Assembly: GCA_913055735.1 (NCBI GenBank) | Contig: CAJXKD010000001.1 | Location: 1,708,281-1,772,280 of the forward strand | Direction: 5' to 3' | Source of the DNA: an uncultured Rhodospirillales bacterium | GTDB taxonomy: Bacteria > Pseudomonadota > Alphaproteobacteria > Rhodospirillales > UBA2165 | Length of the DNA: 64,000 nt | Shown: piece after piece, positions 7,693 to 64,000 of the stretch | Position numbering within the stretch: position 1 is the stretch's first letter | Layout: each line of letters begins with the position of its first letter | Translations under genes and position numbers: made by a program | Notes under the pieces: model-generated | Databases searched by the model: none | What the model saw: the letters and a program-made list of their open reading frames with translations, nothing else | Told to the model about the DNA's origin: nothing

Positions 7693-7716
7693 GGAGGTCG
7701 CAACTATCCGACCGCG

Positions 7717-8163
7717 TTACGGCAGCGGTACGTGAAAAAGTTTCCAAAAAACGAGATAGAGGATCGCCGGCGTCAGAACCGAAACCAGGGTAAGTCGTAC
7801 CCAGTGGCGGTATTCGCCCATGGCGAACATCAACACGGCGATGGCGATAATCCCGCCGACGATAAAGCCGACATAAGCGATAATTGTCACGATGGCCGCC
7901 AAAAAGACGGCGATTACCGCGACAAACTTGATTTCCCGAAAGGGCAGCGGCGTTCGCTCTTCCTGCGTATCTTTTTTAAGAAGACGGGAAACGCAGAGAA
8001 GCGCCGCAAAAAAAGTCGTGGTCCAGAGCAAGGTCAGGGGGAAGACGTCCGGCGCAATACCGTATTCGGAAGACCCGCTGATCTGGTTCGGCACGATCAC
8101 GAAAATGGTGATCAAACCGAGCAACGTCAGGGTCGCTCCCGAAACGATATCTAGGCGCCGCAC
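7717..8163 (-). CDS. tctB: Tripartite tricarboxylate transporter, small permease (TctB)
   Basis: The small membrane subunit of the TTT carrier. The 148 residues contain four predicted membrane segments: about 10-25, 42-60, 80-112 (a pair) and 125-142. This matches the TctB family in size and topology; primary sequence is poorly conserved in this family, so context carries weight. The start is GTG at 8163 behind a strong GGGGGAGAGG ribosome binding site. It lies between tctC and tctA, the usual TTT order. Confidence 0.88.
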   Translation of the reverse strand: MRRLDIVSGATLTLLGLITIFVIVPNQISGSSEYGIAPDVFPLTLLWTTTFFAALLCVSRLLKKDTQEERTPLPFREIKFVAVIAVFLAAIVTIIAYVGFIVGGIIAIAVLMFAMGEYRHWVRLTLVSVLTPAILYLVFWKLFHVPLP

Positions 8164-8214
8164 GTCCCTCTCCCCCCGAAACCTTGGTCTTAATTATTCG
8201 GCTTTTTGACGCCG

Positions 8215-9177
8215 TTAGTTCATTTTCTTCATATCGGCAACCATCGGCGTCACCAGATCATACTGCGCATGCAGGAATTTCAGGGTGTCTTCCGGGTTGC
8301 GATAGTCGGTGGCCAGCTTCATCTTGCCGAGAAGCTGTTCCGACAGTTCCGGTGTCAGTGCCTTCTTGACCGCGCTGGCGAGCTTTGCCTTCACATCCGC
8401 GGGCAATCCCTTTGGCGCCGACAGCATGAAGGTGTCGACGAAGGTGTAGCCGTAACCGAGTTCCAACATGGTCGGAAGGTCCGGGTAACCCGGCATGCGC
8501 TTGGCGCTGATGGTGACCAGCGGCTTCATGGTGCCGGCGGCCACCTGCTTGTGCCAACCGCTGCCGCTCCAGGTCAGATCGACGTGGCCACCCAGCACCT
8601 GCTGGATGCCGCGCGCACCGCCCTTGACCGGGACGACCTTGAACTTGATGCCGTCTTTCTTCTCGATCGCGAGGGCGAGCATGTTGACCACGGCGACTTG
8701 AGACGCGATGGACAGCGTCTTGCCGTTGGCCTTGGCGTCCTTGACCATGTCTTCGAGAGAATTCCAGGGTGAATCCTTGCGCACGACGAGGGCGTCCTGC
8801 GGAATGGTCACCGTAGCGAGATGATCGAAGTCATCGATCCTGTAGCTGATCTTGGGGTCCAGTTGCGGCGCAAGAGTGTAAGCGGCGCTGGCACCCATGC
8901 CGATGGTATAGCCGTCGGGATCCGCGTTGATCAGTGTGCTGGCCATGATCTTGCCGCCGCCGCCGGCTTTTTGCACGGCGATGACAGGCTGACCGAGTTC
9001 TTTTTCGAGATTGGCAGCCAACAGGCGGCCGGTGGTGTCGACGGCGCCGCCGGGGCGGAAGCCGATGAGCATGGTGATGGGTTTTTCCGGAAACTCGGCG
9101 AGAGCCATGCTTGCCGGAAGCGTCATGGCACCGGCTATGACGAGAGCCGAAAGGGCTAGGAATGGTTTTTTCATCAT
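8215..9177 (-). CDS. tctC: Tripartite tricarboxylate transporter substrate-binding protein (TctC/Bug family)
   Basis: The periplasmic receptor for the TTT carrier. It has a Sec signal peptide ending near residue 27 (ALA, before EFPEKPITMLIGF). The Bug-family first loop follows (FRPGGAVDTTGRLLA), where backbone groups bind a carboxylate. The mature length is about 293 residues, standard for the family. The start is chosen at 9177, supported by GGAGG 9 bases upstream. It is the first gene of the leftward operon tctC-tctB-tctA-pht5-like and shares a divergent promoter region with the ThDP enzyme gene. Confidence 0.93.
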   Translation of the reverse strand: MMKKPFLALSALVIAGAMTLPASMALAEFPEKPITMLIGFRPGGAVDTTGRLLAANLEKELGQPVIAVQKAGGGGKIMASTLINADPDGYTIGMGASAAYTLAPQLDPKISYRIDDFDHLATVTIPQDALVVRKDSPWNSLEDMVKDAKANGKTLSIASQVAVVNMLALAIEKKDGIKFKVVPVKGGARGIQQVLGGHVDLTWSGSGWHKQVAAGTMKPLVTISAKRMPGYPDLPTMLELGYGYTFVDTFMLSAPKGLPADVKAKLASAVKKALTPELSEQLLGKMKLATDYRNPEDTLKFLHAQYDLVTPMVADMKKMN

Positions 9178-9256
9178 CGGTACTTGCCTCCACTGATGAT
9201 TGGTTTAATTCGGGGGATGCCGTTTATGTCCACCCGCCGCACACCTATGATTTATC

Positions 9257-9270
9257 GGGAGAATTCTCCC
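9257..9270. promoter_or_regulatory. Perfect 14-bp palindrome in the tctC/ThDP-enzyme divergent region
   Basis: GGGAGAATTCTCCC is an exact inverted repeat about 80 bases upstream of tctC. Its position in a 258-base divergent promoter region suggests a regulator site. It differs from the TAATCTAG-type element next to marR, so a second regulator would be implied. No promoter hexamers could be fixed with confidence around it. Confidence 0.4.
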
Positions 9271-9334
9271 ATATTCTTACGGTGTCGGCCGAGGTGACGT
9301 GCCTCCCACGTCGAGCATCCTAACAAGGGGGCAT

Positions 9335-9354
9335 TTACTAATCTAGGAAAATAA
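9335..9354. promoter_or_regulatory. Possible second MarR operator upstream of the ThDP enzyme gene
   Basis: This 20-base stretch matches the near-perfect palindrome in front of marR (11864-11883) at 14 of 20 positions. It includes an uninterrupted TAATCTAG (9339-9346). It lies about 80 bases before the ThDP enzyme start and upstream of tctC, so one regulator could control both divergent units. The right half is degenerate (GAAA instead of ATTA). Confidence 0.45.
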
Positions 9355-9435
9355 ATTTGAATAGGCGGGCCTCTAATGAGGCTCATGACAATCTTAATTT
9401 TCCGGCTAACGTTCCGGGACCTTTGGGGGGAGACG

Positions 9436-11241
9436 ATGGACGACCACAACAAAAAATCGGCGGGCGACAGCGAGATCGATGCGCCGGCCAATCTGGGAAA
9501 TCCCCAAATGCAGTGGGGCAGCGACGTCGTCGCTCAGGCCCTCCGGAACTTGGATATCCCCTATATTGCCTTGGTGCCTGGCGCCAGCTATCGCGGCTTT
9601 CACGACAGCATCGTGAATTATTTGGGCAACCGGACACCGCAGATGATCGTTTGCTTGCACGAGGAGCATGCCGTCTCCATTGCCGACGGCTACGGCAAGG
9701 TGACCGAGAAACCGATGGCCGTTGCGCTTCATTCGAACATCGGCCTCATGCACGCGACCATGAATATTTTCAATGCCTGGTGCGACCGAACGCCGATGGT
9801 CATGTTTGGCGCTACCGGTCCCGTGGACGCGCATAAACGCCGTCCTTGGGCCGATTGGGTTCATACCTCCAAGGATCAGGGGGCGCTGATCCGCAACTAC
9901 GTCAAGTGGGACGATCAGCCCGCCTCTCCCGAGGCGGCGGTGGAGGCGGTTTATCGCGCCAATCAGATCGCTTCGACGCCTCCCTACGGGCCCGTTTATG
10001 TCTGCCTCGATCTGACCGTGCAGGAGACAAAGCTCGACCACGATGTGAGCGTGCCGCCGGCGAGCCGCTATGCGCCACCGGTTACGGCGATGCCGCCAGA
10101 CGATGCCGTCGACGCGGCTATAGAGGCGCTTGCCAAAGCAAAGTATCCGATCCTCATGGTTGGACGTGTCTCGCGCAGTCAGGAAGAGTGGGACCGCCGG
10201 GTGGACCTCGCCGAACGGTTGGGCGTTCATGTCTTGACCCACCTTTTCGACCCCTCCGCTTTCCCCAGCGAGCACCCGTTGCATTTCCATTGGCCGGCAC
10301 AGGAGTTCATTCTCGACTCCGAAGCGGAAATCATCGCCAAGGCGGATGCGATCCTGAGCCTCGATTGGCCCGACTTGGCGGGATATATCCGGCACGGCAC
10401 GGGGCATTCGCAAACCCAGAAGCCGACTGACGCGACGGTTATCCAGTGTTCCATGGACAGCCTTCTCGCCAACGGTTGGAGTATGGACCATCAAGCCCTG
10501 CCGGCTGCCGACATCAATATTCTGGCACGGCCCGACGATCTCGTGAAACGTATGTTGGAGCGCTTGCCCGCGTCCTGCACGGCGGAAAATCCGCTGGTCT
10601 CACGCGATCGCTATGCCGGCGTCAAGCACTGGACGGAGGTTCCGCTCGAGCCTGAAAACGATCCGGATGGGGTGATGTCGTTGCAAACCATGGCCTATGT
10701 GCTGCAGGAGTTTGCGGAGACGCGTGAGGTGACCTTTGCTCGTCTCCCCATCGGCTGGCCGGGTAAGGGGATGCGGTTCAGAGGGCCACTCGACTACATG
10801 GGCAAGGACGGCGGTCTGGCGGTGGGCACCGGCCCGGCGCATACCGTGGGCACCGCGCTTGCGTTGAAGGACAGCGGACGGACTGTTATCGGGATCGTTG
10901 GCGACGGCGATTACCTGATGGGGGTCGGTGCCTTGTGGTCCGCCGCCAAAATGCGTCTGCCGATGATGGTCATCATCGCCAACAACCGGTCCTACTATAA
11001 CGACGAGCGGCATCAGGAGCGCATTGCGATCCAGCGTGACCGTCCGGTCGAGAACAAATGGATCGGCCAACGGCTCGATGATCCCGCGCCCGATTTGATC
11101 GGCATGGCCAAGGCGCAAGGGCTTGAGGGCGAAGGTGACATCGATTCACCCGAGAAACTGCGCGAGGCGCTGTTGCGCGGCGAAGACGTGTTACGCCGGG
11201 GTGGCGCTTACGTGATCGACGTCCGGGTGTTGGGATACTGA
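9436..11241 (+). CDS. Thiamine-diphosphate-dependent enzyme, acetolactate synthase/decarboxylase superfamily
   Basis: A 601-residue ThDP enzyme with the three-domain layout of the acetolactate synthase and benzoylformate decarboxylase group. Glu76 in CLHEEHAVSIADGYGK is the expected cofactor-activating glutamate. The cofactor-binding motif starts with GDGDYLMGVGALW and ends with IIANN. The start at 9436 is chosen over an upstream ATG at 9376 because GGGGGGAGA sits directly before it. The reaction (decarboxylation, ligation or oxidation of a 2-oxo acid) cannot be assigned from sequence. It is divergent from the TTT operon and followed convergently by marR, which suggests one regulated catabolic unit. 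Confidence 0.85.
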   Translation: MDDHNKKSAGDSEIDAPANLGNPQMQWGSDVVAQALRNLDIPYIALVPGASYRGFHDSIVNYLGNRTPQMIVCLHEEHAVSIADGYGKVTEKPMAVALHSNIGLMHATMNIFNAWCDRTPMVMFGATGPVDAHKRRPWADWVHTSKDQGALIRNYVKWDDQPASPEAAVEAVYRANQIASTPPYGPVYVCLDLTVQETKLDHDVSVPPASRYAPPVTAMPPDDAVDAAIEALAKAKYPILMVGRVSRSQEEWDRRVDLAERLGVHVLTHLFDPSAFPSEHPLHFHWPAQEFILDSEAEIIAKADAILSLDWPDLAGYIRHGTGHSQTQKPTDATVIQCSMDSLLANGWSMDHQALPAADINILARPDDLVKRMLERLPASCTAENPLVSRDRYAGVKHWTEVPLEPENDPDGVMSLQTMAYVLQEFAETREVTFARLPIGWPGKGMRFRGPLDYMGKDGGLAVGTGPAHTVGTALALKDSGRTVIGIVGDGDYLMGVGALWSAAKMRLPMMVIIANNRSYYNDERHQERIAIQRDRPVENKWIGQRLDDPAPDLIGMAKAQGLEGEGDIDSPEKLREALLRGEDVLRRGGAYVIDVRVLGY

Positions 11242-52042: not shown

Positions 52043-55000
52043 TTAGCCGGTAGGCCGCGGTGCCTGTGATACGGCGTCAGCAACACCGTCGGTGTTGATC
52101 CTGAAAAACAGCGTATAGAGCACAGGGACGAAACCCAGCGTAAATAGAGTCGCGACGATCAACCCTATCGCGATGACGCTGGCCATTCCGTAGAACAATG
52201 CTCCCCCGAACAGAATGAGAGGAACCAAGCCCAAGACAGTGGTTAGGGTTGTCATCAGGATCGGACGCAAACGGGCGAGGCAGGCTGTGACTATTGCATC
52301 TAGAGCGTCGCGACCCGCCCGCTCCTCGATCTGAATGCGGTCGATCAAAACGATGCCATTGTTGATCAGGATACCGGCGAGGCTAAACAGGCCAAGTATT
52401 ACCATGAAGCCGAAGGGTGCATTCATGACGATCAATCCCAGGACGCCGCCTATCAAGATGAGCGGAATGGTGACGATTATGATCGTTCCCTTTCGGAACG
52501 AATTGAACTGGCCAACAAGTAGGACGATGATTCCGGCGAGGGCCAGAGGAAGCAGTCCAAATAGGTTTTGATTGGCCTCTGCTTGATCCTCGATCTCGCC
52601 GCCAATCTCCAGTTTGTGACCGGCGGGTAGGTCGAGCGCGTTAAGGGCAGGTTGGATAAGTTCCAGCAGCTTCGGCGCCGGTAGGTTAGGGTTTCGCGCC
52701 TCAACGGTCACGGTCCGTACCTGATTTCTGCGCTTGATTCGGCTGTGCCGCCATTCCGCGTTGATTGTCGCGACTTGGCCCAGGGACACAAAACTATCGG
52801 ACGAAGATGAGTAGACTTGTACTTGGCCGAGGCTGGACAGCGAAAATCTCAGATCGTCGTTTCCTCTGACCACAATGGGAATAATTCTGTCACCCTCGCG
52901 GTAGTCACTGATTGCCAGTCCAGCGAATGTGGTATTTAAAGCGCTCGCGACATCGCTTGAGGTAACGCCCGCGCGACGTGCCCTCACCTGGTCGACATCC
53001 GCGACCAGGGACAGCACCTTATTCTCCCAATCTTGCTCAATGCCGACCGTCCCTTCGATTTCATGAAGTGCGTTGACGAGCTTGCCCGCCGCTTGGGTTA
53101 AGGCGTCTTGGTTGACGCCAACCAGGCGAATTTGGATTAGGCCCGGTTCCGACGAGCCGAACCACATTTTCTTTGCGTCTACCAATCCAGTCGGCATGTT
53201 CTGATCGGCGAAGGAATTGATCCTCCCTATCAGCGTACTCACATCGGCCGCCGAGCTGGTGTTGACCAAGACGAAGGCGTGATGGGGGTCGGGATCGACG
53301 GGCGACAAGGCCAAGAAAAACCTGGGGCCGCCGAATCCTACATAAGCGATGTTACTTGTTATTTCTGGATTTGCGGACTTATCGGATAACCAGGAAGTCA
53401 GTTTCCTCAATTGCCTTTCTGTCTCACGGACATCCGTTCCCGCTTCAAAATCCAAATAGACGAGGAGTTGATTTCGGTCGCCCAATGGAAAGAACTCGGT
53501 CCTGATCGTTCCTAAGGCAAGGACCGCGATTACAAGCAGTCCGATCAAGGAACCGATCGAAGCAAGGCGCCAGCGCAGGAATGCGAATAATACTTTCCGA
53601 TAAAGCCTGTAGATAAATCCGTCATAAGAGGGCCCCTTTTGATCGGCCGCCTGAGGAGAAACCCGCATAAACCAGGCGCACATAGCTGGTGTGACGGTCA
53701 TGGAAAGAAGCCAGGACGCGAGTAGCAGGATCGCAACCACCTGAGCCAGGGATCGGACGAACTCTCCAGTGGCGCCATCTATTAACAACATGGGCAGAAA
53801 GGCAAAGATCGTTGTTAGAGATGACGTTAGAAGCGGTATCGCGAGTGTCCTGCCCGCCTGAATCGCGGCGTCGGATCGCCCAACGCCTTGTTCAAGACGT
53901 GCCCTGATATCCTCCGCAACAACAATGCCATTATCCACGAGCATGCCGAGCGCGATGATCGTCGCGGCGATCGACATCCGTTGGAGTTCGACGTCAAAGG
54001 CGCGCATCACAATGATGCCCAGGAGCATCGTCAAGGGAACGAAAGAGCCGACAATCAGCCCCGTCCGCAAACCCAGGAAGAGCATGACAACCACAAGCAC
54101 AATAGCCAAAGTCTGATAAACGTTGCTGACGGCGCTACCGACGGCGGCGGCGATTAGCTCCGGTTGGAAAGTGGCGTATTCTAGGACGTATCCGATCGGT
54201 AATTCGCTCTGGATGTCCGTGATGAGTGCCGTCAAGCGCTTGCCGAACTCGACATTGTTTGTGCCTTCGACCGTCGAGACCGAGATCACGATGGTGGGGC
54301 GGTTGTTGAAGTAAGCCGGGAACTGCGGTGGATCGACAAGGCTGCGGCGGACGGATACGACATCGCCGAGGGTCAGAACCCGATCGGTTTCGGGAATGCG
54401 AAACACGGTATTCCGGATTTCATCAACGGAAGACAGATTGCCGGAAGGCTCGATAATTAAAGTCCGGCCGTCGGAGACAATTTGGCCGCCGGGCTCGACA
54501 ATGTTCTGATTTGCCAGCGCTCCAAAAACGTCCCGCGGGGACAATTCAAGTTGCGCATACTCCGAAGGGTCTAGTTCCAGGTATATGCGTTCGTCCTGAA
54601 TCCCAATTAGCTCAACTTTTTTTACGCCGGTCAGAGTATAGACCTGATCGCGAATCTCTCTGGCAACGTCGTGCATCTCCCCGAGCGAAAACCCATCCGC
54701 CCAAAGCGCGATGGTTGCGACCGCTGTCAGCCCCACATCGTCGCTAACCGAGGGCCCAATCGTGCCGTCGGGAAGTTCCCGCTTTAGATCGTCTGCTTTG
54801 TTCCGAATGTCCTGAAAAATCGGCTCCAGGGTTGTAAACCGGTCGTGTATGTCGAGCTTCACCTGGCTCGAACCGGTCTTGGAGATAGAGTTAATTTCAT
54901 CGATCTCCGCGATCTCCCGCATTGCCGATTCGATGGGTTTGGTGATCAGTTCCTCTACCCGATCAGGTGACATGCCGGGAAAGGAAGCCGATATCTCGAC

Positions 55001-55138
55001 CTGTCTGATTGTCACGGTCGGGTCTTCGGCTCGGGGATATGTGATGAATTGGGAGGTGCCGAGCGCGATGACGATAAGGATGCCGATTATCGTAAGCCGA
55101 GAGTTCTCGAGGGCGAGCTTGGATAAGTTCATGGCCAA
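52043..55138 (-). CDS. RND-family efflux transporter permease
   Basis: A 1031-residue inner-membrane RND pump of the AcrB/MdtB type, driven by protons. Twelve membrane helices and two large periplasmic loops fit the sequence, with an internal repeat. The TM4 proton-relay segment reads LGMLVDNGIVVAEDI, so the usual Asp-Asp pair is Asp402-Asn403 here. The second half has the GILINNGIVLIDRIQ counterpart. It is 14 bases downstream of its adaptor gene. No outer-membrane channel gene is nearby, so a TolC-like protein encoded elsewhere would be needed. The gene lies between the two tRNA-derived repeats and parts of it are AT-richer than the surroundings. Confidence 0.92.
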   Translation of the reverse strand: MAMNLSKLALENSRLTIIGILIVIALGTSQFITYPRAEDPTVTIRQVEISASFPGMSPDRVEELITKPIESAMREIAEIDEINSISKTGSSQVKLDIHDRFTTLEPIFQDIRNKADDLKRELPDGTIGPSVSDDVGLTAVATIALWADGFSLGEMHDVAREIRDQVYTLTGVKKVELIGIQDERIYLELDPSEYAQLELSPRDVFGALANQNIVEPGGQIVSDGRTLIIEPSGNLSSVDEIRNTVFRIPETDRVLTLGDVVSVRRSLVDPPQFPAYFNNRPTIVISVSTVEGTNNVEFGKRLTALITDIQSELPIGYVLEYATFQPELIAAAVGSAVSNVYQTLAIVLVVVMLFLGLRTGLIVGSFVPLTMLLGIIVMRAFDVELQRMSIAATIIALGMLVDNGIVVAEDIRARLEQGVGRSDAAIQAGRTLAIPLLTSSLTTIFAFLPMLLIDGATGEFVRSLAQVVAILLLASWLLSMTVTPAMCAWFMRVSPQAADQKGPSYDGFIYRLYRKVLFAFLRWRLASIGSLIGLLVIAVLALGTIRTEFFPLGDRNQLLVYLDFEAGTDVRETERQLRKLTSWLSDKSANPEITSNIAYVGFGGPRFFLALSPVDPDPHHAFVLVNTSSAADVSTLIGRINSFADQNMPTGLVDAKKMWFGSSEPGLIQIRLVGVNQDALTQAAGKLVNALHEIEGTVGIEQDWENKVLSLVADVDQVRARRAGVTSSDVASALNTTFAGLAISDYREGDRIIPIVVRGNDDLRFSLSSLGQVQVYSSSSDSFVSLGQVATINAEWRHSRIKRRNQVRTVTVEARNPNLPAPKLLELIQPALNALDLPAGHKLEIGGEIEDQAEANQNLFGLLPLALAGIIVLLVGQFNSFRKGTIIIVTIPLILIGGVLGLIVMNAPFGFMVILGLFSLAGILINNGIVLIDRIQIEERAGRDALDAIVTACLARLRPILMTTLTTVLGLVPLILFGGALFYGMASVIAIGLIVATLFTLGFVPVLYTLFFRINTDGVADAVSQAPRPTG

Positions 55139-55152
55139 CCGGAACCGCTTCT

Positions 55153-56262
55153 TTACTGGCCGCCGAGCAACTTGACCCGTTGGCCATCCCTAAGGAAGCT
55201 GACGCCAGCGGACGCGATTATGTCCCCGGTGTTGAGGCCCTCCGAGACGCTTATCAAGTTGCCGCGAACCGCTTCACCGCCCTGGATTGGTGTTCTCCTG
55301 ACGGTCATAGAAGCTGGATCATAGCGAAATACATAACCCCTTGCGTTCTCGTCCCCCGGTGCAATCGCAACTAAGGGGATTAGAAATCCTCGGTCCTCCG
55401 CATTTGGCGACGATGTTACGCCGGCCTCCACGGCCATTCCAGGGAGCAAACTCGGTGGGCCGTCAACGACAGCCGCCGTGACAGTTACTGAATTAGCCGC
55501 ACCGGCAGATGTGCCGATTTCGGTAATTCGGCCTGAACAGCCGCAACCGGCCACGGCGGTTGTCGCGATAGTGATGGGAGAGCCAACAGACAACCTGTTC
55601 ACGAATGTGTCGGGTACCGAGAAATCGACCTCCAGCACTCCCTTAGAATCGATCTGGAGGACCGTCTGTCCTTTCTGGACTTCGACGAATGGCTCAACCT
55701 GCCGCGCAGAAACAACCCCGTCGAACGGTGCCTTAAGACTGGCATTTTCCAAGTCACGGCGCGCCAGTCCCAGCCTTGATCGCGCAAGACTTAACGCACC
55801 CTCCGAAGCGTCGAAGGCTACGGTCGCTTGGTCTAACGCCGCTTTGGCAACCCAGCCCTTGCTGTGTAGATCGCGCTTGCGTTCCAGGTCGCTCTTCGCG
55901 TTATCGAACTGAGCTTTATCACTATCCAACTGCGCTTGAGCGGCAGTTACATCCAGTGAAAATGGTTCGGTATCCAAGCGCGCCAGCACCTGATCCCGCG
56001 TTACCGCGTCGCCTATCTTGACGTTTACCGCCGCGACGGTTCCCGAAACGGCAAAGCTGAGAGCCGCGGAGTTTGCCGCGGTCAGCTTTCCCGAGAAACG
56101 CCGTACATTGCCCCCTGCCGGCTCTACCACCGTATAAGATTTAATAGCCCGAATCCGTTCTTGGATCTCCGGACGTTCCTCCTCGCAAGCCGCCAGCGCG
56201 AACAAGACCAATGGAGCTAAAGGGGCTAGCAATATCCTGGTATGAAACTTCGAGCTACTCAT
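55153..56262 (-). CDS. RND efflux periplasmic adaptor (membrane fusion protein), lipoprotein
   Basis: A 369-residue HlyD/AcrA-type adaptor linking the RND pump to an outer-membrane channel. The lipobox is ALAAC (Cys26). The first lipoyl half is SFAVSGTVAAVNVKIGDAVT, then a helical hairpin (about 95-160), then the second lipoyl half ASLKAPFDGVVSARQVEPFV. A beta barrel and membrane-proximal domain follow. It is the first gene of the two-gene efflux operon. Substrate range cannot be read from sequence. Confidence 0.92.
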   Translation of the reverse strand: MSSSKFHTRILLAPLAPLVLFALAACEEERPEIQERIRAIKSYTVVEPAGGNVRRFSGKLTAANSAALSFAVSGTVAAVNVKIGDAVTRDQVLARLDTEPFSLDVTAAQAQLDSDKAQFDNAKSDLERKRDLHSKGWVAKAALDQATVAFDASEGALSLARSRLGLARRDLENASLKAPFDGVVSARQVEPFVEVQKGQTVLQIDSKGVLEVDFSVPDTFVNRLSVGSPITIATTAVAGCGCSGRITEIGTSAGAANSVTVTAAVVDGPPSLLPGMAVEAGVTSSPNAEDRGFLIPLVAIAPGDENARGYVFRYDPASMTVRRTPIQGGEAVRGNLISVSEGLNTGDIIASAGVSFLRDGQRVKLLGGQ

Positions 56263-56459: not shown

Positions 56460-59177
56460 CTAGACCGCGGGCAACCGCACGGTGAAGCAGGCGCCGTCAC
56501 CCGCGTCTGGTTGAAGCACCAGATCGCCGCCCAGGCGCTTCATGATCTGTTTGGAAATGGCAAGGCCGAGGCCGCTGCCGCCGTGGCGTCCCGCATGTTC
56601 GTCCCAGCCGCGCGAGAATTTGGAGAAAAGACCTTCCCGGTCGGGCGCCGAAATGCCCGGGCCGTTGTCCCGAACATGGATCTCCCAACCTGTGTTGGTG
56701 CCGTTCGACAAGGTGATCCACGTCTTACGTGCCGGAGAGTCGTTGAACTTGATGGCGTTGGACAACAGATTGATGAACACCTGTTTCAGCCGGTCCGAGT
56801 TCGCCTTCACCATCACGGGTTTCTCGCCCATCTCGTCGATCAGGGTCACGCCATTGTTCTGCGCGAGCCCGCGCATGGTTTCGACCGCGGTGCGGACGGC
56901 GTCGACGGCGTCGACATCCTCGAGCTGCCAATCGATCTCGTCGTTCTCTAAACGCCCCAGTTCCAGAATCTCGTCGAGCAAGCGGGTCAGGCGCATGCTT
57001 TCCTGTTGAATGATGGTGAGGAACCGGCTGGCTTGTTCGGTTTCTAAATCCGGTTGATCGACCAGAATTTCGGAAAAGGAGCGGATCGACGTCATCGGCG
57101 TGCGCAGTTCATGGCTGACCCGGCTGAGGAAATCGTCCTTGAGTTTGTCGAGGGTGGTCAACTGGGCGTTGGCGCGGCGGAGTTCGGCGGCCGTATCCTC
57201 GAGTTCCTTCGACTTGCGCTCCAACTCGCGGCTATAGCGGATGGCTTGCTGGGTTTCGTCGAGAATATTGATAACCGTGTCGAGGCTGATGGTTTCGCCT
57301 TTGACGATCCGCGAGATCAATGAGCGGGCGGAGGCGGCGCCGACGTTGCTGGCAAGCTCGCGTTCCACCTGGGCGATCAGGGCGGGATCGGGCGACGGCA
57401 GCTCATCGGTCCGGCCTTGCTGGCGGGCGAAATCCTCGAACAATCGGTGGGCGCGGGGTTCGCCGAGGAACCGCCGGGCCAACTGATAAAGGTCGTCGAT
57501 GGTGACAGAGCGGATCAGGGCGCCTTCGAAAACCTGTTTGCTGTCCTTGAGGGCATCGACGAACACCGCCGATTGCAGGCGCTCGATGGGGCTTTGGCGG
57601 GTCGCGAGCGATACGGCGACGTAAAGGCCCGTGTTCACCGTCATGCTCCAGAACACGCCGTGCACGATCAGGTCCCATCCGACAAACCCGAACAGAGCAT
57701 CGGGTTTGAGGAAGGCGATGGACCACGGACCGTGTTCAACCACATCCATGAAGGCCCATCCCGATCCGGCAAAGCTCGGCACCAATAAGGTATAGACCCA
57801 AAGCAGAAATCCGGTGGCGAGACCGACAAGAGCGCCTTTCTTGGTGCCGCCCGACCAAAAGATGCCGCCCAACAGGGCCGGCAGGAATTGGGCGATCCCG
57901 ACGAACGAGATCAAACCGATGGAGGCGAGGGGGCTCGAGGTGCCGATCAGCCGGTAGTAGGTAAAGCCCAAGCTGAGAATGGCGATGATGCTGAGCCGCC
58001 GCACGAGCAGCAGGGTTGCGGAGAAGTCGCCGCTGTCATGTGTGCTGAAGAAATGAAACCGCAGGATGACCGGCATGACGAGGTGGTTGGAGATCATGAT
58101 CGCCAGCGCAATGCTCGCGACGATGACCATCGAGGTCGCCGCCGACAGGCCGCCGATGAACGCGAGCAAGGCCAGGGTTTCGTGACCCGAAGCCAGCGGC
58201 ACGGCGAGAACATAGAGATCGGGGTTCATCGAGGCGGGCAGTTGCGTCATGCCGCTTATGGCGATGGGCACGACGAACATACTGACCAGCATCAGGTAAA
58301 GCGGGAACAGCCACGACGCGGTCGCGACATGACGCTCTTCGACATTTTCCACCACCGCGACCTGAAATTGACGCGGCAGGCAGATGATCGCGGCCGCCGA
58401 CAAAAACGTCAGCACCACCCAGCGGGGCTCGAAGCCTTCTGAAAATCCATACAGCTTATGGACGTCGGCATTCGCCGAGGCTTGAACGAACAGGTCCCGC
58501 AGACCGTCGTGCAGACCATAGGTCGCGAGAAAGGCGATGGCGCCGAGGCTTAACAGCTTGACGATCGATTCGAACGCGATGGCGGCAACGATGCCCGGAT
58601 GACGTTCGTCGGCGCCCAGGTTGCGGGTGCCGAACAGAATGACGAACACGGCCATGCAGACGGCGACCCAAAACCCGGTGTCGGCGACGAAGCTGGGCCG
58701 TCTCGCGCCGACAGTGTCCAGAGTGTTGAAGGCCCCCAAGGTGTCGAAGCTCGTCGCGACTGCCTGGAGTTGCAAGGCAATATACGGGGTGACGCCGATC
58801 ACCGCGATGATGGTGACCAGGGCGGAGATGGAGACGCTTTTGCCGTAGCGCGCCGAAATAAAGTCGGCAATGGAGGTGATGCGCTGTGACTTGCTGATGC
58901 GGACCAGTTTGCGGAGCCCAAAGCTCCAAGCAACGAGCACCAGCGTCGGTCCGAGATAGATGGTCAGGAATTCAAGGCCGGATCGCGCCGCCGAGCCCAC
59001 CGCGCCGTAGAAGGTCCAGGACGTGCAATAGACGGCGAGGGACAAGGTATAGACGACGGAGGAATTGACGAAGCTCGAGCCGCCCTTTTTCGCGCGGCGG
59101 TCACTGTAGAAGGCAAGCAGAAACAAGCCGCCCAGATAGATGCTCGCAACGAGAATGATGAGGGACGAACTGAGCAT
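56460..59177 (-). CDS. SLC5-STAC sensor histidine kinase (CbrA/CrbS type)
   Basis: A 905-residue fusion of a sodium/solute symporter-like domain (SLC5, about residues 1-525, 12-13 helices) and a STAC-type linker (540-640, LKDSKQVFEGALIRSVTIDD). A coiled coil precedes the HisKA domain (His689 in RVSHELRTPMTSIRSF). The ATPase domain has [20 protein letters not shown] and GSGLGLAISKQI. Relatives CbrA and CrbS sense carbon/histidine or acetate availability. There is no PAS domain, so the kinase follows STAC directly. It is the last gene of a four-gene operon with an ScfR-type regulator, a receiver and a small membrane protein. Confidence 0.94.
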   Translation of the reverse strand: MLSSSLIILVASIYLGGLFLLAFYSDRRAKKGGSSFVNSSVVYTLSLAVYCTSWTFYGAVGSAARSGLEFLTIYLGPTLVLVAWSFGLRKLVRISKSQRITSIADFISARYGKSVSISALVTIIAVIGVTPYIALQLQAVATSFDTLGAFNTLDTVGARRPSFVADTGFWVAVCMAVFVILFGTRNLGADERHPGIVAAIAFESIVKLLSLGAIAFLATYGLHDGLRDLFVQASANADVHKLYGFSEGFEPRWVVLTFLSAAAIICLPRQFQVAVVENVEERHVATASWLFPLYLMLVSMFVVPIAISGMTQLPASMNPDLYVLAVPLASGHETLALLAFIGGLSAATSMVIVASIALAIMISNHLVMPVILRFHFFSTHDSGDFSATLLLVRRLSIIAILSLGFTYYRLIGTSSPLASIGLISFVGIAQFLPALLGGIFWSGGTKKGALVGLATGFLLWVYTLLVPSFAGSGWAFMDVVEHGPWSIAFLKPDALFGFVGWDLIVHGVFWSMTVNTGLYVAVSLATRQSPIERLQSAVFVDALKDSKQVFEGALIRSVTIDDLYQLARRFLGEPRAHRLFEDFARQQGRTDELPSPDPALIAQVERELASNVGAASARSLISRIVKGETISLDTVINILDETQQAIRYSRELERKSKELEDTAAELRRANAQLTTLDKLKDDFLSRVSHELRTPMTSIRSFSEILVDQPDLETEQASRFLTIIQQESMRLTRLLDEILELGRLENDEIDWQLEDVDAVDAVRTAVETMRGLAQNNGVTLIDEMGEKPVMVKANSDRLKQVFINLLSNAIKFNDSPARKTWITLSNGTNTGWEIHVRDNGPGISAPDREGLFSKFSRGWDEHAGRHGGSGLGLAISKQIMKRLGGDLVLQPDAGDGACFTVRLPAV

Positions 59178-59186
59178 CGAACCGGC

Positions 59187-59447
59187 CTACCGCTCCGCCG
59201 GGTCGGTCGTGTTCGGCCCGGGAGAGGCCGACACATTGGTATCGCTGGTCATGACCATCCGGCGAGACAGCCATGCGGTGACCACGATTCCGGCTAGCCA
59301 CACGGAGAATATGTAGACATGGAGCAGCGGAATGCCGGCGAGGAAACTTTGCTGGTCGAACACCTGCAAATAAGGCGGCATGAGCAGCAACAGCATCACC
59401 ACCGGCAGGACGAATGCGGCATCGCGGGTGCGTCTGTTGCGGGACAT
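59187..59447 (-). CDS. Small two-helix membrane protein, symporter-associated
   Basis: An 86-residue protein with two predicted membrane helices (about 11-28 and 42-62), joined by a short loop QVFDQQSFLAGIPLLHVYIF. Small proteins of this sort (DUF3311-like) often lie directly upstream of sodium:solute symporter genes. Here it precedes the SLC5-kinase by 9 bases, so it is probably a partner of the transporter-like sensor domain. Function is inferred from position. Confidence 0.75.
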   Translation of the reverse strand: MSRNRRTRDAAFVLPVVMLLLLMPPYLQVFDQQSFLAGIPLLHVYIFSVWLAGIVVTAWLSRRMVMTSDTNVSASPGPNTTDPAER

Positions 59448-59469
59448 GGCCCTAACCTTTTCCCTGAAA

Positions 59470-59856
59470 CTACTGTTGCGGCGCCTTGGCGCTTTCCAGA
59501 AGGGCGGCGACCGAGCTCACCAGTTCCTGATTGGAAAACGGTTTGGTCATGAATTGATCGACACCCAGATCGACCATGCGACGCCGGTCCGCTTCCTGGC
59601 CCTTTGCGGTCAGGGCCAACACCGGCAAGGCGGCGAACTCGGGTTGTTCGCGGATGCGGCGTAGAATTTCGAAACCGCTGGTGGTCGGCAGCATGATGTC
59701 GAGGATCAACAAATCCGGCCGCTGTTTTTTCAGTTCGTCCAGAACCGAGGCGCCGTCGGAGACCGACGCTATGGTGTGTCCTTCCCGTGACAGAAGGAAG
59801 CTGAGCGATTCAACGATGAACGGCTCGTCCTCCGCGATAAGAATTTTGGTTCCCAT
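59470..59856 (-). CDS. Single-domain response regulator (receiver only)
   Basis: A 128-residue CheY-like receiver without output domain. The acidic pocket Asp10-Glu11, phosphoacceptor Asp53 (LLILDIMLP), Thr83 and Lys105 (TKPFS) are all present, so it should be phosphorylatable. The ATG at 59856 is selected by GGGGGAG just upstream. It lies between the ScfR-type regulator and the symporter-kinase genes and is their obvious phosphotransfer partner. With no DNA-binding domain it must act on another protein. Confidence 0.93.
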   Translation of the reverse strand: MGTKILIAEDEPFIVESLSFLLSREGHTIASVSDGASVLDELKKQRPDLLILDIMLPTTSGFEILRRIREQPEFAALPVLALTAKGQEADRRRMVDLGVDQFMTKPFSNQELVSSVAALLESAKAPQQ

Positions 59857-59927
59857 GGTTTTCTCCCCCATGCTCTCCCTGTGCGGCACCCGTTTTTATC
59901 TGGTGGTGTGCTCGCGCTTTTGAAATT

Positions 59928-61508
59928 TCATTCCGCTGCCGCGCCCGTGACGGGTGCCTTACGGTTGTTTTGCCTACTGTCGCCAGCCAACAACGATGGC
60001 TGTGCCCGTTGACGGCAATCGTGCCGTTCGCAGAGCCGGCAGCTGAATCCGACCGGCGTCTCGAGCGATGCCTGCCCGGTGGCGTATCGGTCGCCGTAAA
60101 CGAGCCGGTCCATATACAGAGAATCACACCCGATCATGACGCTGTAGCGGGTCGGCGCTTCGCCGAAGCCGGCGGTTCGTTTGTCAACGGTGCGGGCAAT
60201 GAACAGATAGCGTTCGCCCAGCTGCGTCGTTGCCAATTGCGATACGATACGCCCCGGTTCCGAGAAGGCGGCATAGATGGCCCATAAAGGGCACGCCCCG
60301 CCGAACCGCGGCATGGGAAGGCCGGGTATGCTGAACGGCTTGGAAATATTGCCGGCCGGATCGGTGCGCAAGAAGGCAAAGGGAACGCCGGGTGCTTTCG
60401 GCCGTTGCAGGGTCACGAGGCGGTGGGCCGTTTGCTCGAAACTGCTGCCGAAAGCGGCGCTCAGGCGGTCGATATCATAACGGTGATGTTCGGCGGCCTT
60501 CAGAAATTCTTGATAGGGAAAGAGAAGGGCGCCTGCGCCGTAACTGGCGAGGGCCCTGCGGCCAAGAGATCGGGCGTCGTCGTTGGTCAGCCGGCTATCT
60601 TGCACGAGTCTGTCGAGAAGGTCGGCGGCCTCGATCTCGATCAACCGCTTCGCCATGCGGAAACGGATGGAAGCCTCCGGTGCCCGGGTGTCGAGCCAAA
60701 ACACATTCTCCGAAGGTTCTCTCGTGTCGCCATCTGTGAAACGGACGTCGATGCCGTGGCGATCGGAAAGCCGTCCGGCAATTGCCGTTGCCACCAGCTT
60801 GCCGCTGACTCCCATCTCGTCCCGCAGCGACCGCGTCGCCGATTCGAGTTCATCGAAATAGTTGCGGTGCGCAATGATGAAGTCGTCGACCTCTTTTTCC
60901 GGCGACAGCGGTTCGGGTGCATCCATGGCGCTACCGAGCAATTCGATCATCGCGCGGACACTGGAACCCAACTGGCCGCTTTGTGAAGCGACGATGCCGC
61001 TGAACCGCCGCTGGTCACCCGCATTGAGATCGTCGAATTGACCTAGAATTTCGGCGAAGGACCGGATCGACGTGGTCTGGGTGAGAATGGCATGGCTGAG
61101 CTGATGCAGCATGGGGTCCTGGCTCAACCTGTCGGACAGAGACAGGGCGTGCTCCGCGGTGTCTTGGTATTTGCGGTGCAGTGCCAGTAAGGCCCGTGCC
61201 CAATCGGGGTTCTCCGCGACCAGCCGGACGACGTTCTTTTCATCGAGCCCCGTCAGCGATTGGGATCGCGCCATCTCGAGAGTTTGCTGAACGAGGGGGC
61301 CGTCTTCGGCGTCGCTCAAATGGCTCGTCTCTACGCCCAGCTGGGCCGCCAAACGGTTGAGCAGGGCGCCCCCGATCATCCGTTTGTTGTGCTCGATGAG
61401 GTTCAAATAGGAAACGGAAATGCCTGCCTGTTGCGCCAAGGCGGACTGGGTCAAGCCCAGTTCCTTCCGCTTGTTGCGGATCCGTTGTCCGATCGGCAGA
61501 CGTTGCAC
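59928..61508 (-). CDS. ScfR-type (XRE-HTH, IrrE-like) acyl-CoA regulator with HisKA-like segment
   Basis: A 526-residue transcription factor. An XRE helix-turn-helix (about 6-60, with the ScfR-like GISVSYLNLIEHNKRM) comes first. The C-terminal half is a short-chain fatty acyl regulator domain ending in the cysteine motif CRLCERHDCRQRA (Cys490, 493, 498). An IrrE-like region (about 270-300) lacks the HExxH zinc motif, so no peptidase activity is expected. Residues 134-191 match the HisKA region of the neighbouring kinase (22 of 58 identical, no gap), aligning His139 with its phosphoacceptor. A PccR-type operator lies 33 bases upstream of the start. The gene heads the operon with the receiver and SLC5-kinase. 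Confidence 0.9.
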   Translation of the reverse strand: MQRLPIGQRIRNKRKELGLTQSALAQQAGISVSYLNLIEHNKRMIGGALLNRLAAQLGVETSHLSDAEDGPLVQQTLEMARSQSLTGLDEKNVVRLVAENPDWARALLALHRKYQDTAEHALSLSDRLSQDPMLHQLSHAILTQTTSIRSFAEILGQFDDLNAGDQRRFSGIVASQSGQLGSSVRAMIELLGSAMDAPEPLSPEKEVDDFIIAHRNYFDELESATRSLRDEMGVSGKLVATAIAGRLSDRHGIDVRFTDGDTREPSENVFWLDTRAPEASIRFRMAKRLIEIEAADLLDRLVQDSRLTNDDARSLGRRALASYGAGALLFPYQEFLKAAEHHRYDIDRLSAAFGSSFEQTAHRLVTLQRPKAPGVPFAFLRTDPAGNISKPFSIPGLPMPRFGGACPLWAIYAAFSEPGRIVSQLATTQLGERYLFIARTVDKRTAGFGEAPTRYSVMIGCDSLYMDRLVYGDRYATGQASLETPVGFSCRLCERHDCRQRAQPSLLAGDSRQNNRKAPVTGAAAE

Positions 61509-61540
61509 GTAATGCCTCCCCAGGCGTGTGCGTGTTTAAT

Positions 61541-61560
61541 TTTGCAAAAATATTTACTTA
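61541..61560. promoter_or_regulatory. Candidate ScfR/PccR-type operator
   Basis: TTTGCAAA (61541-61548), four bases, then TTTACTTA (61553-61560). Rhodobacter PccR is described as binding TTTGCAAA-N4-TTTGCAAA, and other ScfR proteins bind TTTGCAAA-like sites. Here the first half-site is perfect and the second matches 5 of 8. It lies between the divergent regulator and ABC transporter genes. A weaker pair (TTTACAAG, TTTGCTAG, spacing 2) lies at 61584-61601. Confidence 0.62.
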
Positions 61561-61721
61561 AAAAAGCTCGGAACACAAACATTTTTACAAGATTTTGCTA
61601 GCCGGCCTCTCGCCGCTTGCGCGCTTTCCTTCCCATCCGTAGTGAAGAGAGGGACAGGGGCGGGGCGCCTATTTGCCCCAAAGAAAGTCCTTGGATAACG
61701 AAATCACGGGAGAGCTTCGAA

Positions 61722-63074
61722 ATGGATTTTTCGGACAGCAAGCTGACACGCCGCAGCGTTCTAAAGGGCGCCACGGCTTTGGCAGGCACCGCGGCAGCCG
61801 CGTCGCCGGCCTTTTTCATCAAGAATGCCTGGGCTGCGGGGCAATTCCGCAATGATCCGGGTAACGCCAAATCGGTGACCATCGGCTTCAACGTGCCGCA
61901 AACGGGCGCCTATGCCGATGAGGGTGCCGACGAGTTGCGCGCCTACAAGCTGGCCGTTCAGCACATCAACGGTGAAGGCGACGGCGGCCTGCTCAACACC
62001 ATGAAGCCGCTTTCTCTGAAGGGGAACGGCATTCTCGGCAAAAAGCTCGAATACGTCACCGGTGATACGCAGACCAAGTCGGACGCGGCGCGGGCTTCCG
62101 CCAAGCGAATGATAGAAAAGGACGGCGTGGTGATGTTTTCCGGCGGCTCGTCGTCGGGCGTTGCCATCGCACAACAGTCCTTGGCGCAGGAGATGGGCGT
62201 CATCTTCATGTGTGGTCTGACGCACTCCAACGACACCACCGGTAAGGACAAGCGCCGCTATGGTTTCCGCCACTTCTTCAACGCCTACATGTCGGGCGCC
62301 GCGCTCGGTCCGGTGCTGGAGAAGGAGATGGGCAAGGAACGGCGCGCCTATCACTTGACCGCCGACTACACCTGGGGCTGGACCCAGGAAGAGTCGATCA
62401 AGAACACCACGGAAAAGCTGGGTTGGCAGACGGTCAATGCCGTCAAGACGCCGCTGGGCGCGGGCGACTTTTCGCAATACATCACGCCCGTTCTCAACTC
62501 CGGTGCCGACGTGTTGATCCTCAACCACTACGGCAAGGACATGATCAACTCCTTGACCCAAGCGGTTCAGTTCGGTCTTCGCGACAAGCAGGTCAACGGC
62601 AAGAACTTCGAAATCGTCGTACCCCTGTTCTCGCGTCTGATGGCTCAGGGCGCCGGTGACAACATCAAAGGCATCCTCGGTTCGACCAACTGGAACTGGT
62701 CGCTGCAGGACGAGGGCTCGAAGGCTTTCGTCAAGTCCTTCGGCGCGGCTTACGGCTTCCCACCGTCACAGGCGGCCCACACCTGCTACGTCCAGACGGT
62801 GCTCTATGCCAACGCCGTTGAAATGGCCGGGACCTTCTTCCCGCCGGAAGTCATCAAGTCCCTGGAAGGCTTCGAATTCGACGGTATGGGGAACGGTCCG
62901 ACCGAATACCGGGCGGCCGATCACCAGTGCTTCAAGAACGTTCTTGTGGTGCGTGGAAAACAGAATCCGAGCAGCCAGTTCGACCTCCTGGAAGTGGTGC
63001 AAGAAGTGCCCCGTTCTCAGGTCGAGTACGATCCGAAAATCTTCGGCGGCGAACTCGGACCCTATCAAGCATAA
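61722..63074 (+). CDS. ABC transporter substrate-binding protein, branched-chain amino acid type, Tat-exported
   Basis: A 450-residue periplasmic receptor of the LivJ/amide type. The signal contains a twin-arginine motif (LTRRSVLKGATAL) with cleavage near AWAAGQF. The mature part starts SVTIGFNVPQTGAYADEG and has the typical ligand-site segment MFSGGSSSGVAIA. The start is ATG 61722 with GGGAGAG upstream. It is followed by a hairpin and the permease gene, and is divergent from the ScfR-type regulator. Ligand is unknown: branched-chain amino acids, amides, urea and aromatic acids are all possible. Confidence 0.9.
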   Translation: MDFSDSKLTRRSVLKGATALAGTAAAASPAFFIKNAWAAGQFRNDPGNAKSVTIGFNVPQTGAYADEGADELRAYKLAVQHINGEGDGGLLNTMKPLSLKGNGILGKKLEYVTGDTQTKSDAARASAKRMIEKDGVVMFSGGSSSGVAIAQQSLAQEMGVIFMCGLTHSNDTTGKDKRRYGFRHFFNAYMSGAALGPVLEKEMGKERRAYHLTADYTWGWTQEESIKNTTEKLGWQTVNAVKTPLGAGDFSQYITPVLNSGADVLILNHYGKDMINSLTQAVQFGLRDKQVNGKNFEIVVPLFSRLMAQGAGDNIKGILGSTNWNWSLQDEGSKAFVKSFGAAYGFPPSQAAHTCYVQTVLYANAVEMAGTFFPPEVIKSLEGFEFDGMGNGPTEYRAADHQCFKNVLVVRGKQNPSSQFDLLEVVQEVPRSQVEYDPKIFGGELGPYQA

Positions 63075-63157: not shown

Positions 63158-64000
63158 ATGGATGCGATCCTGCTTCAGATATTGAACGGTCTGGACAAGG
63201 GCGGCGCTTATGCGCTGATTGCTCTCGGTCTGACCTTGGTATTCGGTACGCTCGGCGTGGTGAACTTCGCGCACGGTGCGTTGTTCATGTTGGGCGCTTT
63301 CTGCGCCGTCACCCTGCAACAACTTCTGACCATTTCGAAGCGCGTCAAGGATGAAAGCATCACCTTCTTCGACGCCTACAAGGAAACGCCCTATCTCGAA
63401 ATCTGGTTCGGCGATACGGGCAAGACCATCATCGATTTTTCGGTGCCGCTGTCGATATTGCTGGCGATTCCGGTCATGTTGCTGATCGGCTTCGTCATGG
63501 AACGGGGCTTGATCCGATTTTTTTACAAGCGGCCCCACGCGGAACAAATCCTCGTCACCTTCGGCCTAGCCATCGTTCTCCAGGAAGTTATCAAGGCGCA
63601 ATTCGGCGCCAATCCTGTGCCGCAGGCCGCGCCTGACTTCGTTGCGGGCAGCGCCGATATCGGGTTGTGGTTCGGGTTGGGCGAAGGTCTCGTCTATCCC
63701 TGGTGGCGTTTGATCTATCTCGGCTTTGCCGCCGTGGTGATTACGCTCGTGTTCTCATTTTTGCAGTTCACCACCTATGGCATGGTCGTGCGCGCCGGCA
63801 TGCAGGACCGCGAGACGGTCGGGCTGCTCGGCATCAATATTCAGCGGCGCTTTACCGTCGTGTTCGGTATCGCCGCCGTCGTCGCCGGTCTGGCCGGCGT
63901 CATGTACACACCGATCCTGCCACCCGACTATCACATGGGCATGGACTTCCTCGTTCTGTCGTTCGTGGTGGTCGTTGTCGGCGGTATGGGTTCGTTGCCG
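63158..64000 (+). CDS. Branched-chain amino acid ABC transporter permease, LivH type (partial)
   Basis: The first 281 residues of a LivH-type inner-membrane permease; the frame is open at the window edge. It begins MDAILLQILNGLDKGGAYAL, with the family segment VFGTLGVVNFAHGALFMLGA. An insert of about 35 residues between the first helices (KDESITFFDAYKETPYLEIW and following) is longer than in classical LivH. Later motifs include ERGLIRFFYKRPHAEQILVT and MVVRAGMQDRETVGLLGI. The GGGGAGG upstream is about 13 bases from the ATG. Confidence 0.9.
   Translation, partial: MDAILLQILNGLDKGGAYALIALGLTLVFGTLGVVNFAHGALFMLGAFCAVTLQQLLTISKRVKDESITFFDAYKETPYLEIWFGDTGKTIIDFSVPLSILLAIPVMLLIGFVMERGLIRFFYKRPHAEQILVTFGLAIVLQEVIKAQFGANPVPQAAPDFVAGSADIGLWFGLGEGLVYPWWRLIYLGFAAVVITLVFSFLQFTTYGMVVRAGMQDRETVGLLGINIQRRFTVVFGIAAVVAGLAGVMYTPILPPDYHMGMDFLVLSFVVVVVGGMGSLP

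Follow-up and report, generated by a model that had tools for sequence, protein, structure and literature searches.

Textbook two-component systems carry the receiver and the DNA-binding output in one fused protein. DNA-binding response regulators also serve the described kinases with SLC5 and STAC domains (CbrA/CbrB, CrbS/CrbR and RpuS/RpuR), systems with short-chain acid themes, acetate and pyruvate (PMC5715377, PMC9100948), and in the cryo-electron microscopy structure of CbrXA a two-helix peptide, CbrX, is bound to the SLC5 domain (PMC13022988). The known ScfR-type transcription factors PrpR, RamB and PccR are one-component regulators, and in Caulobacter DivL binds DivK~P through a disabled dimerization and histidine phosphotransfer (DHp) domain (PMC4211667). 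The present analysis concerns a locus encoding both an ScfR regulator and an SLC5-STAC histidine kinase, found in a stretch of 64,000 nucleotides (the window) from an uncultured Rhodospirillales bacterium (GenBank assembly GCA_913055735.1, contig CAJXKD010000001.1, positions 1,708,281 to 1,772,280). The ScfR contains a DHp-like domain that appears to imitate the DHp of the kinase of its own operon, and we propose, with a probability of roughly 0.78, a two-component system that would act through a metabolite-sensing transcription factor equipped with a docking domain taken over from the kinase itself.

The locus consists of four leftward genes, all on the reverse strand, whose order (ScfR, receiver, two-helix protein, kinase), proposed in an earlier sequence-only reading, was borne out by the open reading frames and Pfam. 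The ScfR gene (59928..61508; 526 residues) is separated by 38-71 bp from that of the receiver (59470..59889, with a likely ATG start at 59856), followed after 22 bp by the gene of an 86-residue two-helix membrane protein (59187..59447) and after 9 bp by that of the kinase (56460..59177; 905 residues); given these short gaps, the four genes likely form a single operon (56460-61508). The receiver was rightly said to lack an output domain and to keep its phosphorylation site: Pfam finds Response_reg (PF00072) alone (E 4e-29), and the residues E20/D21, D64, T94 and K116, numbered from the listed GTG start, are kept in 51-53 of the 53 operon receivers, with D64 and K116 in all 53 and T94 in 51. The symporter-like character ascribed to the kinase also holds, as a profile of 14 kinases aligns over residues 7-622 to the CbrA SLC5-STAC structure 10ed (E 7e-106); Pfam does not call the SLC5 part and finds HisKA and HATPase_c, with the DHp at residues 680-745, including His689, and the catalytic (CA) domain at 793-904. 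The kinase is non-hybrid, having no receiver domain, and its AlphaFold2 model, poor in the DHp region, was not used. The 86-residue protein has two hydrophobic helices according to hydropathy and alignment, and its gene position is conserved in relatives; it has no match in Pfam or NCBIfam and no significant match in PDB. Its place just upstream of the kinase and its helix number match those of CbrX (PMC13022988), to which no sequence homology was found, and by this analogy it would probably be bound to the kinase as CbrX is to CbrA.

A DHp-like domain in the ScfR regulator

The ScfR is built of an HTH domain (residues 6-64), the DHp-like insert (123-197), an M78-like region (249-364) and a ScfRs/GAF-like part, corresponding to Pfam matches with HTH_3, M78/IrrE-like and ScfRs (PF09856, E 1e-49), and its AlphaFold2 model has a mean pLDDT of 86. 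Its profile matches Mycobacterium tuberculosis PrpR (E 1e-102; Foldseek E 2e-25), and its cysteines C406 and C490-X2-C493-X4-C498, each present in at least 90% of 33 homologues, correspond to the Fe-S motif of PrpR (PMC6765138). From the PrpR-type domain, the Fe-S cysteines and the nearby acs and prp genes (see below) we infer acyl-CoA sensing by the ScfR. Assignment as a RamB equivalog (NCBIfam NF038139) was dismissed, with 363 bits against a cut-off of 700. The same genome holds a second, ordinary ScfR with no DHp insert (G000:C1:1673004-1674350), about 35 kb upstream of the window.

The DHp-like domain comprises about 75 residues (60918..61142, reverse strand), and ordinary ScfRs show a gap in the alignment where it sits. 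The sequence-only reading had noticed neither this domain nor the divergent transporter and operator-like sites described below. When the kinase is compared with the ScfR by BLASTP, ScfR residues 118-190 align to the kinase DHp with 37% identity (E 9e-7), in an alignment that spans the phospho-acceptor histidine (SHELRTPMTSIRSFSEIL vs SHAILTQTTSIRSFAEIL) and pairs kinase His689 with ScfR His139 (codon at 61092..61094, reverse strand). At the family level, hhalign aligned a profile of 49 ScfR segments to one of 14 operon kinases over 61 ungapped columns, at 99.4% probability (E 5e-21). Individually, 42 of these 49 segments matched Pfam HisKA at E up to 0.1, and in a PDB profile search the segment profile matched the structures of HK853 and DivL. 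Protein A repeats, which also came up in that search, were rejected as DHp relatives, their score being summed over repeats with no single stretch significant. AlphaFold2 predicts helices at 132-157 and 163-196 that form a hairpin; Foldseek of the whole model against PDB returned PrpR, IrrE and HTH proteins and could not single out the hairpin, so that the DHp call rests on sequence profiles. In the DHp-ScfRs of L064, L065, L066, L067 and L068 the HTH, the DHp and the C-terminal Cys motif are kept, and the DHp is better conserved than the M78-like region, since the latter is shortened or lost there.

The resemblance is directed to the kinase of the same operon. In the window's genome, the ScfR DHp reaches a score of 93 with the operon kinase, and none of 25 other kinases exceeds 52; over 56 loci the mean score is 100 against the cognate kinase and 40 against others. 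It is also concentrated at the nine co-evolving specificity residues of EnvZ, at offsets H+7, 8, 11, 12, 14, 15, 26, 29 and 30 from the acceptor histidine (PMC2991266), where the sequence is TSSFEIDRF in the ScfR of the window and TSSFEIQRF in its kinase, identical at 8 of 9 positions; the other kinases scored share with this ScfR at most 4 of the 6 alpha-1 specificity positions. Across 53 loci, ScfR-kinase identity is 0.64 at the specificity positions vs 0.31 for the rest of the domain (p 0.002 by permutation). The acceptor histidine is present in 62/69 ScfR homologues and a Thr, Ser or Asn at H+4 in 67/69; at H+1 a Glu occurs in just 9/69, the window having Ala, and the ScfR has no HATPase_c or other ATPase domain. 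Judged by these residues, the ScfR DHp appears to be a docking site for a receiver, and possibly a phosphotransfer site, that has lost kinase function.

Linkage to the receiver and a possible second effector

Among 289 scanned genomes of the class, ScfRs with the insert could be told from those without it; a collection of 84,980 species genomes, also searched, contributed loci from the named genera Thalassospira, Devosia, Pelagibacterium, Maritalea, Falsochrobactrum and Magnetovibrio, as well as from the betaproteobacteria Rubrivivax and Rhodocyclus; the pooled non-redundant set contained 69 DHp-ScfRs and 41 ordinary ones. The sequence-only reading had staked its case on a conserved gene neighborhood in relatives, and among loci with enough sequence the receiver lies directly downstream of 51/66 DHp-ScfRs and of 0/39 ordinary ScfRs (Fisher 9e-17), while a kinase is found within the locus for 54/69 vs 0/41. 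The gene order of the window recurs in dozens of genera, and the four-gene arrangement is for this reason not a chance one. The kinase was also searched for on its own: 39 genomes have a full-length non-hybrid kinase, among them all the complete genomes with a full-length DHp-ScfR, and 5 of the 39 have no DHp-ScfR. In some lineages, the kinase gene is distant from that of the ScfR, stands on another contig or belongs to the opposite operon. Within the conserved block there is no DNA-binding response regulator that could be the dedicated partner of the SLC5-STAC kinase, whose conserved partner is the receiver-only protein; a second partner encoded elsewhere may exist. Plasmid matches were inspected and were either unannotated or ordinary.

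The acceptor histidine is lost only where no receiver is adjacent. In DHp-ScfRs with Gln, Phe or Tyr in place of the histidine the adjacent receiver is absent in 7/7, vs 8/59 of those with His (p 8e-6), and in four of the His-less loci (L052, L057, L058, L114) the receiver, two-helix protein and kinase are instead the last genes of the divergent transporter operon. Receiver and ScfR-DHp distances remain correlated once four other domains are regressed out (partial r 0.20, Mantel p 0.001), as do receiver and kinase-DHp distances (partial r 0.33). The earlier proposal that the receiver acts through the ScfR gains strong comparative support from linkage, DHp homology, specificity residues, the lack of a DNA-binding response regulator in the block and co-divergence. 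In one genome with two loci (L037 and L079), two receivers coexist; the one next to the ScfR is 59% identical to that of the window, and the other, next to the kinase, 36%.

The 5 genomes with the kinase and without a DHp-ScfR include 4 in which a gene for a PAS and DnaQ-type exonuclease protein lies between receiver and kinase (L072:12016-14106, L073:6744-8777, L074 ~8936-11083 and L075 ~6753-9338). This protein contains a His-less DHp-like segment, which matches the DHp of both the kinase (96%, E 4e-9) and the ScfR (97%, E 6e-11), the profile being made of four sequences only. This hints at a modular design, a receiver paired with a DHp-bearing effector, and is offered as a lead, not as a finding. 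Separately, genes for a CBS-DUF294 nucleotidyltransferase-like protein and a DnaQ-type protein lie beside the module in L049, L054, L055 and L110; in the last (L110:1787-9623), DHp-ScfR, receiver, membrane protein, kinase, DUF294 protein and a second receiver are followed by the DnaQ-type gene, giving two receiver/DHp-effector pairs side by side.

The divergent transporter and operator-like sites

Divergently from the ScfR gene, on the forward strand, runs the gene of an ATP-binding cassette (ABC) transporter substrate-binding protein (61722..63074; twin-arginine signal, Peripla_BP_6), a probable target of the regulator, followed by a LivH-type permease gene (63158..64000), the first of LivHMGF, which continues beyond the window end. 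Such a divergent binding protein is found at 57/66 DHp-ScfR loci with enough upstream sequence and at none of the ordinary ScfRs. Across the alphaproteobacterial loci the LivH, LivM, LivG and LivF homologues and the Peripla_BP_6 protein are mostly 60-86% identical; in the betaproteobacterial loci L113, L125 and L152 the layout is likewise divergent, with a different HAAT-type transporter (~38% identity). A literature search yielded no name for the transporter substrate, and the solved relatives of the binding protein, at weak similarity, are amino-acid or urea binders.

The 213 bp between the ScfR and the transporter contain two operator-like sites that fit the family motif, AATCTTGTAAAAAT (61581..61594, reverse strand), upstream of the ScfR, and ATTTTTGCAAAATT (61538..61551, reverse strand), 43 bp from AATCTTGTAAAAAT. 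The 14-bp family motif AATTTTGTAAATTT is found in 66/67 non-redundant upstream regions vs 7-16 in Markov shuffles, and pairs of it are common, either 31-32 bp apart and direct or 43-44 bp apart and inverted. An independent count of the exact TTTGTAAA or its complement gave 40/71 upstream regions vs about 0.8 expected from mononucleotide shuffles. The exact palindrome TTTGCAAA was discarded as the operator, being present in few relatives; the conserved form is that of the TTTGTAAA-type sites. The RamB binding-site probe in PMC10370305 has TCTGTAAGGTTTGTCA on one strand, which we read as a related half-site pair.

Acetyl-CoA synthetase (acs) genes belong to the cluster in L052, L057, L058, L067, L078, L100 and L107. 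In L078, where acs, receiver and kinase lie apart from ScfR and transporter, two motif copies 8 bp apart stand about 450 bp upstream of acs, which lends weak support to control of acs by the ScfR. In the window's own genome, prpC-, prpB- and prpD-like genes of the 2-methylcitrate pathway (L083:13443-16992) are found about 12-15 kb beyond the ScfR, with an AcnX-type aconitase and a tripartite ATP-independent periplasmic (TRAP) transporter in between. On the other side, after the kinase and on the same strand, are genes for a resistance-nodulation-division (RND) efflux pump and its adaptor (52043-56262), which were rejected as part of the module, as they are not found with the conserved block in relatives.

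Proposed mechanism, alternatives and known systems

Domain homology, linkage, residue conservation and conserved sites were read from sequence, and the steps that build on them, including binding, phosphorylation, the direction of regulation and the ligand, are put here in the conditional. The SLC5-STAC kinase, to which the two-helix protein is probably bound, would sense a small substrate, perhaps a carboxylate as the earlier reading supposed, and phosphorylate the stand-alone receiver, which would then dock on the kinase-imitating DHp-like domain of the ScfR. Docking may alter the conformation of the ScfR directly, or the phosphoryl group may pass to His139, and in either case DNA binding would change. 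The ScfR would in this way integrate the state of the receiver, reporting membrane sensing, with the acyl-CoA level perceived by its PrpR-like domain, and through the predicted TTTGTAAA-type sites it would regulate its own operon and the divergent ABC transporter, joined in some relatives by acetyl-CoA synthetase.

Whether the phosphoryl group travels further divides this model into two tentative versions. A strict phosphorelay from the kinase to the receiver aspartate and on to His139, with phospho-His as the output, is possible, at somewhat less than even odds; it would agree with the conservation of the histidine, which suggests that the imidazole matters, with the kept H+4 residue and with the loss of the histidine solely where the receiver is not adjacent. 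However, the 7 His-less homologues retain both domain and transporter linkage, the H+1 acid is mostly lost and docking on DivL needs no acceptor histidine (PMC4211667). The same His-less ScfRs, together with the exonuclease variant, which carries a His-less DHp, and the conserved receiver-contact residues, are consistent with docking only, in which the phosphorylated receiver would bind the ScfR DHp and shift DNA binding without phosphotransfer, like DivK~P on DivL; the loss of the histidine in some lineages suggests that docking alone can suffice. This version, too, falls a little short of an even chance, the histidine being present in 90% of homologues, beyond what a pure docking surface would need.

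The remaining explanations place the receiver elsewhere. The ScfR DHp could contact the kinase itself, in a mixed four-helix bundle or through phosphorylation of His139 by the CA domain, leaving the receiver as a sink or feedback element. DHp domains do dimerize and the ScfR DHp is closest to that of the operon kinase, but the conserved face is the receiver-specificity face and the dimer core of alpha-2 (H+42 to H+48) is poorly shared, and the separation of kinase and ScfR genes in some lineages also makes such contact unlikely. Dimerization, along with the oligomerization of PrpR-type regulators (PMC6765138), might equally recommend the insert as a mere dimerization or spacing element, with the receiver acting at another place; this is improbable, given that the insert tracks the receiver and keeps its histidine, that identity is raised at the receiver-contact positions and that the receiver has no other output protein conserved alongside it.

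Returning to the model of a receiver that docks on the ScfR, several points weigh against it. The window's own DHp segment is below the Pfam HisKA cut-off (16.5 vs 26.9 bits), and in L046, L047, L099, L104 and L115 the histidine is kept and the receiver or kinase has moved away or is not seen. Phosphotransfer cannot be universal, because some lineages lost the histidine. The locus counts are not phylogenetically independent, the histidine losses representing perhaps 3-4 events, Pelagibacteraceae are heavily represented among the ordinary ScfRs and the AATTTTGTAAATTT matrix was trained on the same regions that it scores.

If the model is true, one promoter-binding protein receives signals both from a membrane sensor and from acyl-CoA, and the wiring would be found in many alphaproteobacteria, in which a nutrient sensor and a free receiver appear to control a metabolite-sensing regulator via a copy of the DHp. 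For single-domain receivers, which in many cases lack a known output, there would be a concrete and searchable type of target, namely DHp domains within non-kinase proteins, and a role is predicted for SLC5-STAC kinases without a DNA-binding response regulator. There is a real chance that the DHp-ScfR defines a new class of signal-receiving transcription factor. The broader claim, that transcription factors of this class would receive two-component signals via a captured kinase DHp, the inverse of the fusion of a receiver to a DNA-binding domain and possibly with a phospho-His output, and that reuse of the scheme with the PAS-exonuclease would make it a general modular wiring, may as well be wrong as right. 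A literature search, thin on subscription papers, yielded no description of a DHp in an ScfR or of a receiver acting through one. The nearest mention is a single sentence in a 2023 paper, according to which Pden_1785 of Paracoccus denitrificans, an ScfR relative, clusters with two-component genes (PMC10370305); it resembles the present ScfR in gene context and may belong to the same subfamily, and the paper mentions no DHp domain and did not study its function.

Among the known systems, PrpR, RamB and PccR share with the DHp-ScfRs the HTH, M78-like and ScfRs domains, the Cys pattern and TTTGTAA-like half-sites; the DHp-ScfRs have in addition the DHp and a linked two-component system. With CbrA, CrbS and RpuS the operon kinase has in common the SLC5 and STAC domains, whereas the place of their DNA-binding response regulators is taken by a stand-alone receiver and a DHp-bearing ScfR, and CrbS, unlike the operon kinase, is a hybrid. 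Spo0F is a single-domain receiver, and Spo0B is a DHp-type four-helix-bundle phosphotransferase that passes the phosphate to Spo0A. The Spo0F-Spo0B pair thus also sets a single-domain receiver opposite a DHp-type bundle, but Spo0B hands the phosphate on, whereas here the DHp is part of the transcription factor itself. The closest mechanistic precedent is DivL-DivK, in which a DHp that is no longer catalytic senses the state of a single-domain receiver (PMC4211667). DivL, however, is a membrane pseudokinase with a CA domain and acts on another kinase, whereas the DHp of the ScfR belongs to a DNA-binding protein, stands without a CA domain and has in most cases retained its histidine.

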